Shown here: positions 42,247-63,927 of the stretch, one piece after another
Position numbering within the stretch: the stretch's first letter is position 1
How the letters are laid out: each line of letters opens with the position of its first letter
Assembly: GCF_016595495.1 (NCBI RefSeq)
Contig: NZ_JAENIM010000039.1
Location: 622,989-686,988 of the forward strand
Reading direction: 5' to 3'
Origin: Persicirhabdus sediminis
GTDB lineage: Bacteria > Verrucomicrobiota > Verrucomicrobiia > Verrucomicrobiales > Akkermansiaceae
DNA: 64,000 bases
The notes under the pieces: model-generated
What the model saw: only the letters and a program-made list of their open reading frames with translations
The model's database searches: none
What the model was told of the DNA's origin: nothing
Program-made: the position numbers and the translations under genes

Positions 42247-42624
<378 letters not shown>

Positions 42625-59356: not shown

Positions 59357-60841
59357 ATGTCACGATTCACCAAGTGGTTTTTCATTGTTCTAGCCAGCAT
59401 TCTACTTGTCTTTGTCGCCCTGCCAGCTAGCTGGTATGGATATTATGCTTGGAAGTTAGACCGCGACTTTAAGCAACTCAGCGAATCGCTTCACGCTGCT
59501 GATCCGGCACGAGCTAATCAGGTAGATCTCATGTCCCAGCTAGCTGAGATTGACGATTCGATTAGGGATTGGAGATCGAACTTCAACTCGTACCCTCAGA
59601 TGCTTCCTAGCTACGCCGGCCTATGGCAATATCACGACCGTAGATGGTTCGCTGAAAGACGTGGCCGAACCTTCGATGAATCGATCACCTCAGCACATCA
59701 ATTTGCCTACTGGCTAGAGCGCAAACACTATCGCAGCAGCGACAGCGAAGCAGCTAAAGCTGAAAAACCACGCAAAGTTTACCGCACTGAGGGGCAGGTC
59801 GCGGCAGATCCCTCGCTGCTCACCCGTTATTCTATTACTAATGAAAAAAACACACGCCAGCTGGTTGTGATCACCGAGGCCGACGCCGCTGAGAAGTTTT
59901 TGCACGACCATGGTGAGGAAATTAATCAACAACTCGCACCTTGGATTGCGAGATTCAAAGCCAGTGATTATTGGCACAGCAAGTTAGGTAAATATAAGTT
60001 AGAATTCGAGCTGGTCGCTGCTTGCCAACTACTCAGCCTTACTACCAGCGCGCGGCTATTGATAGGTGAGATCGACGCGGCTATGGATGATCTAATGCTT
60101 TTGATCAAGATGAGCCAAATGCCGACCATTGGTGACTCTATCTACAGCCATCATCTTCAAGCCAGCATTCAAGAATACGTCATCGATCTGGTTTGGCAGA
60201 TTCTCAATAACAAAACATTAGACGGCAACCAGCTGCAAGCTCTCCAGCCAGCATTTCCTAAAGGAAACAATGCTCAGGAGATGGCTAAATACATTGCGGC
60301 GTCGAGCATCTGGGTGAGCTCAAAGTGGCAAGATTTCGCTAATGATAAAATGCTCCATGGTGAGCTCTCAGCTGGCGATCGATTCATGCTACCCTATCGT
60401 CTGAGCAAACAAAATAAATCACTGCGAGAGCTAAGCAAGCAGCTGAGCCAGCTTGCCAGCCAAGGCGAGGAGATGTCCTATCCAGCTAGCAAAAAATGGA
60501 TTCCTTCAACTGATGATTCGTTAGATCTGCTCTTTAAAGTTGATGTCGGGTCTATCTTACGCCAACAACTCACGCGAAATACGCTCTACCAACAAATGCG
60601 CACCGCCATTGCGCTGGAAAGGTTCTATCTAGACCACGGCAGCTACCCGAGCCAGATGAATCAACTTGTGCCCATCTATCTAGCCGATGCACCTATCAAC
60701 GGGCTCAGCGGAGAGGCCATCAGCTGGCAACTCGACAAAAATGGCCCGGTCATGCAGCATGATAGAACTACTACGACATTGGGTAAAAATGGTGAGTGCT
60801 CTGAGCAAATAGAACCATTCGTCTGGAGGTACTGGAGGTAA
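59357..60841 (+). CDS. Secreted or anchored paralogous-family protein (copy 3)
   Basis: A 494-residue intact member of the family at 2172-3539 and 3599-5060. It has an N-terminal membrane segment (FFIVLASILLVFVALPASW), a long helical body, and the C-terminal motif TAIALERFYLDHGSYPSQMNQLVPIYLADAPINGLSGEAISWQLD. The end 'PFVWRYWR' matches the layout of the broken copy's 'AVDWRHRR'. It is followed directly by the 202-bp repeat array. Function unknown. Confidence 0.75.
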   Translation: MSRFTKWFFIVLASILLVFVALPASWYGYYAWKLDRDFKQLSESLHAADPARANQVDLMSQLAEIDDSIRDWRSNFNSYPQMLPSYAGLWQYHDRRWFAERRGRTFDESITSAHQFAYWLERKHYRSSDSEAAKAEKPRKVYRTEGQVAADPSLLTRYSITNEKNTRQLVVITEADAAEKFLHDHGEEINQQLAPWIARFKASDYWHSKLGKYKLEFELVAACQLLSLTTSARLLIGEIDAAMDDLMLLIKMSQMPTIGDSIYSHHLQASIQEYVIDLVWQILNNKTLDGNQLQALQPAFPKGNNAQEMAKYIAASSIWVSSKWQDFANDKMLHGELSAGDRFMLPYRLSKQNKSLRELSKQLSQLASQGEEMSYPASKKWIPSTDDSLDLLFKVDVGSILRQQLTRNTLYQQMRTAIALERFYLDHGSYPSQMNQLVPIYLADAPINGLSGEAISWQLDKNGPVMQHDRTTTTLGKNGECSEQIEPFVWRYWR

Positions 60842-60869: not shown

Positions 60870-62966
60870 GCTAGATTTTCCAGCTCCCCCGTCGTGCGGG
60901 GCTGGAACTGAAGGTCATTTGACTTGTGTGAGCGGATGGTTGCCTTTTGGTATTTCTACCCGCTAGGCAAAAGCGGCGAAGGATCGCCGCAGTCCAAAGC
61001 CTGCGGCCGAACTAGCTAGCTCTTTTGGTTTTTTCCAGCTGGCTCTGACATCACGGGCCGAAAGTTATCATGCTAGATTTCCCACCTCCCCGTCGTTCTG
61101 GGCTGGAACTGAAGGTCATTTGATCTCCTGAGAGCGGATGTTTGTCTTTTGGTATTTCTATCCGCTAGATGAAAGCGGCGAAGGATCGCCGCAGTCCAAA
61201 GCCTGCGGCCGAAGTAGCTAGCCGATTTGGTTTTTCCAGCTGGCTCTGACATCACGGGCTGAGAGCTATTTAGGTAGATTCACCCTGCTAACCCGTCGTT
61301 CTGGGTTGGAACTGAAGGTCATTTGACTTGTGTGAGCGGATGTTTGTCTTTTGGTATTTCTACCCGCTAGGCAAAAGCGGCGAAGGATCGCCGCAGTCCA
61401 AAGCCTGCGGCCGAACTAGCTAGCTCTTTTGGGTTTTTTCCAGCTGGCTCTGACATCGCGGACTGAGAGCTATTTAGGTAGATTCACCCTGCCAGCCCGT
61501 CGTTCTGGGCTGGAACTGAAGGTCATTTGATCTCCTGAGAGCGGATGTTTGTCTTTTGGTATTTCTATCCGCTAGATGAAAGCGGCGAAGGATCGCCGCA
61601 GTCCAAAGCCTGCGGCCGAACTAACTAGCTCTTTTGTTTTTTCCAGCTGGCTCTGACATCACGGGCCGAAAGCTATCTCTTCTAGATTTACCCTGCTAGC
61701 CCGTCGTTCTGGGCTGGAACTGAAGGTCATTCGACTTGTGTGAGCGGATGGTTGCCTTTTGGTATTTCTATCCGCCAGGCAAAAGCGGCGAAGGATCGCC
61801 GCAGTCCAAAGCCTGCGGCCGAACTAACTAGCTCTTTTGGTTTTTTCCAGCTGGCTCTGACATCACGGGCCGAACTAGCTAGCCGATTTGGTTTTTCCAG
61901 CTGGCTCTGACATCGCGGGCCGTAAACTATCTCTGCTAGATTTCCCAGCTCCCCCGTCGTTCTGGGTTGGAACTGAAGGTCATTTGACTTGTGTGAGCGG
62001 ATGTTTGTCTTTTGGTATTTCTACCCGCTAGGCAAAAGCGGCGAAGGATCGCCGCAGTCCAAAGCCTGCGGCTAAACTAACTAGCTCTTTTGGTTTTTTC
62101 CAGCTGGCTCTGACATCACGGGCCGCAAACTATCTCTGCTAGATTTCCCAGCTCCCCCGTCGTTCTGGGCTGGAACTGAAGGTCATTTGACTTGTGTGAG
62201 CGGATGGTTGCTCTTTGGTATTTCTACCCGCTAGGCAAAAGCGGCGAAGGATCGCCGCAGTCCAAAGCCTGCGGCCGAAGTAGCTAGCCGATTTGGTTTT
62301 TCCAGCTGGCTCTGACATCACGGGCTGAGAGCTATTTAGGTAGATTCACCCTGCTAACCCGTCGTTCTGGGTTGGAACTGAAGGTCATTTGACTTGTGTG
62401 AGCGGATGTTTGTCTTTTGGTATTTCTATCCGCTAGATAAAAGCGGCGAAGGATCGCCGCAGTCCAAAGCCTGCGGCCGAACTAGCTGAGTGTTCTGGAA
62501 TTTCCAGCTGGCTCTGACATCGGGGACTGAGAGCTATTTAGGTAGATTCACCCTGCTAGCCCGTCGTGCGGGGCTGGAACTGAAGGTCATTTGACTTGTG
62601 TGAGCGGATGGTTGCCTTTTGGTATTTCTACCCGCTAGGCAAAAGCGGCGAAGGATCGCCGCAGTCCAAAGCCTGCGGCCGAACTAGCTAGCTCTTTTGG
62701 TTTTTTCCAGCTGGCTCTGACATCACGGGCCGAAAGTTATCATGCTAGATTTCCCACCTCCCCGTCGTTCTGGGCTGGAACTGAAGGTCATTTGATCTCC
62801 TGAGAGCGGATGTTTGTCTTTTGGTATTTCTATCCGCTAGGCAAAAGCGGCGAAGGATCGCCGCAGTCCAAAGCCTGCGGCCTAACTAAGTAGCTCTTTT
62901 GGTTTTTTCAAGCTGGCTCTGACATCGCGGGCTGAACTAGCTAGCCGATTTGGTTTTTCCAGCTGG
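60870..62966. repeat. Ten-copy tandem array, 202-bp unit
   Basis: The core GGCGAAGGATCGCCGCAGTC recurs at 60975, 61177, 61379, 61584, 61787, 62040, 62243, 62445, 62647 and 62849. Spacings are 202-205 bp except one of 253, explained by an extra partial unit around 61866-61915. Each unit has a perfect GCGGCGA-AGGA-TCGCCGC hairpin, an overlapping CCGCAG/CTGCGG hairpin, a C/G-rich hairpin (as at 61290-61307 and 61494-61511), AGCGGA/TCCGCT arms and one CCAGCTGG or close variant. No protein frame is conserved; two 60-codon minus-strand frames are products of the repetition. Confidence 0.95.
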
Positions 62967-63013
62967 CTCCATCGTGCTGGACTGAAAACTGAAAACTTTA
63001 ATCTGAAAACTAA

Positions 63014-63052
63014 AAAAACCACCATCACGCCAGCTGGCGTGATGATGGTTTT
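63014..63052 (-). terminator. fabG terminator centred on CCAGCTGG
   Basis: This is a near-perfect palindrome: AAACCACCATCACGCCAG against CTGGCGTGATGATGGTTT with one mismatch. Its dyad axis falls in the CCAGCTGG at 63030-63037. A T-run follows on the minus strand. It lies 20 bp after the fabG stop codon. Confidence 0.85.
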
Positions 63053-63071: not shown

Positions 63072-63818
63072 TTACATCGTCATTCCGCCGTCAGTGGCAA
63101 CTACTTGACCAGTGATGTAGCGAGCTTCTTTGCTGGCGAGGAAGAGTGTAAGTGCAGCGACGTCGTCAGTGCTGCCCAGCTCACCGAGCGGGATGTTGCC
63201 GAGGATGGCATCTTTGACTTTGTCGTTGAGTTCGTCAGTCATTTCAGTAGCGATGAATCCTGGAGCGATGGCGTTACAAGTCACCTTGCGGCCAGCTAGC
63301 TCTTTAGCTACAGCTTTAGAGAAACCAATCAGACCAGCCTTACTTGCGGCGTAGTTAGTTTGACCCGCATTGCCCATCAGACCGATTACTGAGCTGATGT
63401 TAACGATGCGTGGATCTTCCGCTTTCATCAATGTGCGCTGGAATGCTTTCACGGTGTTGAATGCACCCTTGAGGTTAGTATCGAGCACTGCGTCCCAATC
63501 CGCTTCTTTCATGCGCATGAGCAGGCCGTCGCGAGTGATGCCCGCGTTGTTGACGAGGATGTTGACGGTGCCAAAATCAGCAACCACCTGCTTGCCAAGG
63601 GCTGCTACTTCGTCGTGATTAGCCACGTCTACAGCGTAGGCTTTAGCGCTTTCAGGAAACTCAGCATTGATGGCTTCTGCAGCTGCGCCACAGCTGGACT
63701 CACTGCGGCTCACCACAGCAACTTTAGCACCTTCAGCTGCAAATGCTTTTGCGATCTCTTGTCCGATTCCGCGACCACCACCAGTGACCACGACAACTTT
63801 GTTTTCAAAACGTGACAT
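63072..63818 (-). CDS. fabG: 3-oxoacyl-[ACP] reductase
   Basis: A 248-residue short-chain dehydrogenase from the ATG at 63818 (upstream extension to 63857 lacks similarity). The NADPH loop is TGGGRGIGQ (12-20), then NNAGITRDGLLMRM (90-103). The catalytic tetrad is Asn115, Ser143, Tyr156, Lys160 in 'NISSVIGLMGNAGQTNYAASKAG'. The ending ITGQVVATDGGMTM is typical of FabG. It reduces 3-oxoacyl-ACP in fatty acid elongation. The partial gene upstream is on the same strand. Confidence 0.93.
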   Translation of the reverse strand: MSRFENKVVVVTGGGRGIGQEIAKAFAAEGAKVAVVSRSESSCGAAAEAINAEFPESAKAYAVDVANHDEVAALGKQVVADFGTVNILVNNAGITRDGLLMRMKEADWDAVLDTNLKGAFNTVKAFQRTLMKAEDPRIVNISSVIGLMGNAGQTNYAASKAGLIGFSKAVAKELAGRKVTCNAIAPGFIATEMTDELNDKVKDAILGNIPLGELGSTDDVAALTLFLASKEARYITGQVVATDGGMTM

Positions 63819-63927
63819 GCACGTATTTGTCACGCTTTTCAGCGACTGCCAAATCAAAAAGTTGAGTTATTTACAATTGTTAGTCAGGAATGTAAGTATT
63901 GACAGGTGATCTGCGCACGCGGATCTG

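Follow-up and report, generated by a model that had tools for sequence, protein, structure and literature searches.

A tandem array of ten units, lying at positions 60888 to 62990 (+ strand) of a 64,000-nucleotide stretch of Persicirhabdus sediminis DNA (the window), carries in every unit a short palindromic core that recurs elsewhere in the genome and around genes for a REP-associated tyrosine transposase (RAYT), a single-tyrosine HUH nuclease. These are very probably REP-type DNA elements partnered with the RAYT, which would have spread them; local duplication and expansion into an array may have followed. The array belongs to a known kind of bacterial mobile repeat (REP/RAYT), of which it represents a seldom described variant, and is not a new RNA structure. 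Within that kind it is unusual in its tag, TTTGGA(G/C)T, and in how frequently it forms direct tandem arrays.

Repeat finders and unit alignment placed the unit starts at 60888, 61089, 61292, 61496, 61700, 61953, 62156, 62358, 62560, and 62761. Most units span 201 to 204 bp (~202 bp); unit 5 is longer, at 253 bp, owing to a duplication of 50 bp within it (61817 to 61922, + strand), and a similar duplication ends unit 10 (62880 to 62990). Larger blocks are also repeated: 60888 to 61168 is identical to 62560 to 62840 (281 bp, 100%), and 61172 to 61421 matches 62238 to 62487 (250 bp, 98.8% identity). A preliminary description made from the sequence alone had proposed ten ~202-bp units with several hairpins each, block duplications, and two block subtypes, TCTCCTGAG and CTTGTGTG, all of which our analysis confirmed, the subtypes by unit alignment. 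Since the left neighbor, an open reading frame (ORF) at 59357 to 60841, is on the + strand and the right neighbor, a fabG-like gene at 63072 to 63857, is on the − strand, the array sits between convergent genes. A near-perfect 19-bp inverted repeat without a spacer, bordered by runs of A and of T, lies between the array and fabG (63015 to 63052) and is probably a bidirectional terminator. An Rfam scan of the window returned three tRNAs and no other family above threshold.

Every unit contains a 47-nt core in which a linker separates a 7-bp hairpin, capped by a four-base loop, from a second hairpin of 3 bp. The sequence common to the arrays of the genome is AAAGCGGCGAAGGATCGCCGCAGTCCAAAGCCTGCGGC, with close variants, and its fold as single-stranded DNA has a z score of about −2.4. 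In copy 1 (60966 to 61012), which folds as DNA in this way, hairpin 1 is GCGGCGA-AGGA-TCGCCGC (60973 to 60990), the linker is AGTCCAAA, and hairpin 2 is GCC-TGC-GGC. A covariance model of the core, R1, scored this copy at 68.7 bits (E value of 2.9e-25). The other nine copies, also on the + strand, are at 61168 to 61214 (65.8 bits), 61370 to 61416 (68.7 bits), 61575 to 61621 (66.9 bits), 61778 to 61824 (68.7 bits), 62031 to 62077 (65.7 bits), 62234 to 62280 (67.6 bits), 62436 to 62482 (67.4 bits), 62638 to 62684 (68.7 bits), and 62840 to 62886 (65.4 bits). A single dispersed core outside the array (42435 to 42474, − strand; R1 score of 42.7 bits, E value of 5.1e-15) lies ~110 bp downstream of a tRNA-Pro gene (42247 to 42323).

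Read on the − strand, the core runs 5′-TTTGGA(G/C)T, 7-bp hairpin, TTT, with the small second hairpin beside it. A conserved unpaired tag thus stands directly 5′ of the hairpin foot, as in REPs; among 105 distinct cores its variants are GAGT (65), GACT (33), and GAGC (6). None of the 105 had GTAG or GTGG, the mark of the GTAG super-family, immediately at the foot, and one had it within 2 nt; CGTC, the mark of the other super-family, was at the foot in none. We found no earlier report of the TTTGGA(G/C)T tag in the openly accessible literature, which does not prove that none exists.

The preliminary description had also inferred a maintained structure from a hairpin at the unit junctions, in which AGCCC/GGGCT becomes AACCC/GGGTT. 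We checked all ten junctions and found all five pairs at five of them (units 3, 4, 5, 8, and 9). The AACCC/GGGTT version pairs in units 3 and 8 only (61290 to 61307 and 62356 to 62373, + strand), and since both lie inside the same 98.8% identical 250-bp block, the change reflects a single event that was then copied. In unit 6, GGGTT faces a left arm, CCCCC, with which it does not pair. The paired changes therefore trace to a single duplication, which the description itself had named as an outcome that would defeat its argument, and the junction hairpin was rejected as a covarying structure. The covariation argument was the correct idea applied to the wrong hairpin: a maintained structure is supported for the 47-nt core, which covaries between arrays and genomes, but not for the junction.

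Because the core is nearly invariant within this array, its covariation is visible only between arrays and genomes. Among 31 diverse cores we counted 23 two-sided changes, compared to 3.3 in shuffles. The alignment of R1 matches (150 matches, 105 of them distinct) contained 87 two-sided changes versus 12.8, with 96.8% of cells paired, compared to 25 to 69% in slid versions of the structure. Since that alignment had been fitted to the structure, we added a home-made analogue of the R-scape check that the preliminary description had suggested, in which Fitch states were assigned on a FastTree tree and substitutions were reshuffled along its branches. It returned three significant pairs (E value of ≤0.007), all of them within the stems and with both hairpins represented; the window's genome alone gave one significant pair. 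On the tree of cores, both partners of a pair changed on the same branch in about 22 cases. Only 2 of 735 cells of stem 1 are G-T or T-G. This near absence favors a DNA hairpin over an evolving RNA stem, and where the preliminary description had allowed for either, the sequence pattern points to a core that acts as DNA. The matched stem changes may have arisen by template switching in palindromes, without selection.

A search with the array unit across the 47 contigs (4.17 Mb) of its own genome gave 77 matches, namely, the ten units and sites of only ~37 to 86 bp. About 16 other regions carry the core, mostly as tandem arrays whose units measure ~120 to 350 bp and differ from array to array; these arrays share only the core with that of the window, and the remainder of their unit sequence is unrelated. 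A search for a second motif common to the arrays outside the core yielded mainly AGCTGG-type words, which are frequent genome-wide. The genome has more than 60 core copies, which by a rough count lie between ORFs, in keeping with the many, mostly intergenic copies that characterize REPs. Of 22 sites classified roughly from ORFs, 12 had convergent neighbors and 2, which share one gap, had divergent neighbors. Of the 190 genomes of the order, 125 contained R1 matches (up to 32 counted per genome). In relatives, the cores often form inverted pairs ~100 bp apart, and both orientations occur; singletons, inverted pairs, and clusters were all found, as is typical of REPs. A well-sampled genus of the family (g3; 2- to 3.5-Mb genomes) has zero or one core and no RAYT of this clade.

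Other repeats share the window. Outside the arrays, AGCTGG occurs 278 times versus 25 expected (e.g., in 1251 to 60840), CCAGCTGG 45 times versus 0.9, and AGCTAGCTGG 18 times versus 0.1. Genome-wide, AGCTAGCTGG occurs 551 times and its reversed word 3 times, with 0 to 8 occurrences in 19 relatives. The density of AGCTGG-type words in the window is 4.3 per kb in coding and 6.0 per kb in noncoding DNA; the word seems to be lineage specific and is reminiscent of cyanobacterial HIP1 or of an uptake word. A second tandem array, at 1 to 1200, has a unit of ~287 bp and starts upstream of the window. Its hairpin is a different one (~27 nt, GTATCTGTACTATACAGGTAC), also present at a few other genomic sites, some of them ~480 bp apart, and it probably represents a different REP-like family.

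The preliminary description had recommended looking for a REP-associated transposase, and the genome does encode a cognate RAYT. It has 25 Y1_Tnp matches, and two RAYT genes, C46:47968-48504 and C46:90585-91136, each lie between core arrays that are in opposite orientation on either side. The gene at C46:90585-91136 is flanked by tandem arrays with units of 195 and 174 bp and a diverged core, AAAGCGGTGCTAAAGCACGCGCACTC. The gene at C46:47968-48504, with two cores (−) to its left and four (+) to its right, was found with a profile of the C46:90585-91136 and G126 proteins, and the cores around it were already known beforehand. In the relative G126, a homologous RAYT, 46% identical to the C46:90585-91136 protein, has cores on both sides. 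The NCBIfam model NF047646 (REP-associated tyrosine transposase, cutoff of 80 bits) scored the two proteins of the window's genome at 75.3 and 78.1 bits, just under the cutoff, and the G126 protein at 85.4 bits, above it. The HUH motif, as NHYH, and the catalytic tyrosine, in YVHENP/YINQNP, are present, and TnpA-REP (PDB 4ER8) was matched with an E value of 5e-4. Neither RAYT gene is near the window's array.

RAYT genes flanked by their own elements, a mark of REP systems, were found well beyond these two loci. Among the best 30 RAYT loci of the order, 29 had a core at an E value of ≤0.01 and the last, the diverged one of the window's genome, had 0.012, a count that is slightly circular in that cores of L031 and G024 (through L059/L174) were in the model seed and the G126 locus had contributed to the discovery of the gene. 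Among RAYT loci from several phyla, 53 of 62 (counted from the table) had a core at the same threshold; the nine without were mostly the most distant or partial. A search independent of the model, for TTGGA(G/C)TGC leading into a perfect hairpin, found 101 sites at 35 of the 62 loci, compared to 1, 0, 0, 0, and 0 sites for five scrambled tags and 1 site at 40 other Y1_Tnp loci. The core was present in every one of the 63 genomes that gave a strong RAYT match, 61 of which had three or more copies (raw counts across related genomes). No core at an E value of ≤0.01 was found near IS200-type ~150-aa transposases among the loci examined or near ~400-aa Y1 proteins at the four loci examined (L053 to L056). 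The latter belong to a set of more than 10 long proteins (~370 to 445 aa) with a partial Y1_Tnp match, others of which lie elsewhere in the window's genome (G000). IS200-type ~150-aa genes at four of its loci (L047, L048, L049, and L051) stand beside tandem arrays of other hairpins with units of 149 to 223 bp, L049 having them on both sides.

Hairpin recognition and guide-adjacent cutting have been studied for TnpA-REP of E. coli (PMC8266576). By analogy, the RAYT would recognize the core hairpin in single-stranded DNA and be guided by the unpaired tag; it would cut beside the tag, and copies of the element would spread. We infer the binding, cutting, and spreading of the core by the RAYT from this likeness. 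How an array is born is less certain: a core with ~150 bp of neighboring DNA may be duplicated locally, through hairpin slippage or repair of a RAYT cut, and the array would then be expanded and homogenized by recombination between copies. A role for the RAYT in driving tandem growth is likewise an extrapolation, and ordinary host recombination may be enough. Since hairpin families with no relation to the core are likewise arranged in tandem here, such growth is possibly a habit of the host.

The same observation lends something to a simpler account, in which replication slippage and recombination built the array as they would any ordinary tandem repeat, the core survives from an old REP, and both RAYT and hairpin are now idle. 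The near invariance of the core within the array and the exact copying of blocks are what recombination would give, and no RAYT lies beside this array. If the core were irrelevant, however, its presence in ~16 other regions, in most cases as arrays with unrelated units, would be unlikely, and both RAYT genes of the genome keep core arrays on both sides. We consider this account rather unlikely as a whole and possible for the growth step alone. Another alternative, proposed for E. coli BIMEs, is that such elements are DNA platforms for a host protein (gyrase or a nucleoid protein) or bidirectional transcription stops. Roles of this kind have been put forward for REP/BIME sequences (PMC3733652, PMC8266576), and the excess of convergent over divergent sites (12 versus 2 of the 22, by rough ORF-based classification) fits them, but the company the core keeps with RAYT genes across phyla explains it without them. 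As the primary explanation a platform or stop is very unlikely; as a secondary role it may be compatible with REP-type elements spread by a RAYT.

An RNA function is the least credible of the alternatives, with hardly any probability left to it. Here the array would be transcribed into a regulatory repeat RNA, for example, a CsrA sponge acting through its AGGA loop. The hairpins do covary, and the loop is AGGA in 59 of the 105 distinct cores, mostly from the window's genome. The loop differs in relatives, where the cores also occur in both orientations; stem 1 almost lacks G-T pairs, and the window has no Rfam match except tRNAs. Since a search of the genome for CsrA gave no gene at an E value of ≤0.001 and the loop is not conserved, the CsrA sponge was rejected.

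REP-type elements partnered with a RAYT thus account best for the array, and they matter in three respects: they form an order-wide palindromic repeat family tied to a RAYT clade whose guide falls outside the GTAG and CGTC classes; they make guide recognition by RAYTs directly testable; and they repeatedly become, in this genome, tandem arrays with array-specific units, a behavior described elsewhere and not explained. A bolder proposal, which we regard as doubtful, is a separate REPtron class with a TTTGGA(G/C)T guide, spread across Verrucomicrobiota, Planctomycetes, Acidobacteria, Armatimonadota, and other phyla, in which the transposase would also trigger tandem amplification of the element, locally and along with neighboring DNA.

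Among the closest parallels are the REP/BIME elements of E. coli with TnpA-REP (YafM, PDB 4ER8), which are likewise short intergenic palindromes, single or clustered, with an unpaired foot tag and a homologous HUH transposase. The tag here is TTTGGA(G/C)T instead of GTAG, and the clusters are direct tandem arrays with units of 120 to 350 bp that vary by array. REPINs of Pseudomonas fluorescens SBW25 (PMC3116915) resemble the inverted core pairs ~100 bp apart in relatives, and their RAYT is also flanked by elements, whereas the window's genome has mostly direct tandem repeats and a different tag. Large clusters in which REPs are repeated in tandem along with varying lengths of flanking DNA have been described (PMC3733652), and the GTAG and CGTC super-families, which include Opitutus terrae, share with our elements the occurrence of REPs in Verrucomicrobia and tandem clusters with flanking DNA; neither tag stands at the foot of the 105 distinct cores. 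In the RAYT classification of PMC6006769, most subclasses have GT[AG]G, 2.6 and class 3 have atypical structures, and 2.1 and 2.3 are without REPs. By eye, and by motif only, our RAYTs resemble subclass 2.8 (NHYH, W-H, Y..NP, and a proline-rich start), but that subclass was reported with GT[AG]G REPs and Cyanobacteria. IS200/IS605 elements similarly place a Y1 HUH transposase beside hairpins; the genome's 150-aa IS200-type genes, however, have no core nearby, and the RAYTs described here match the REP_Tyr_transpos model best.
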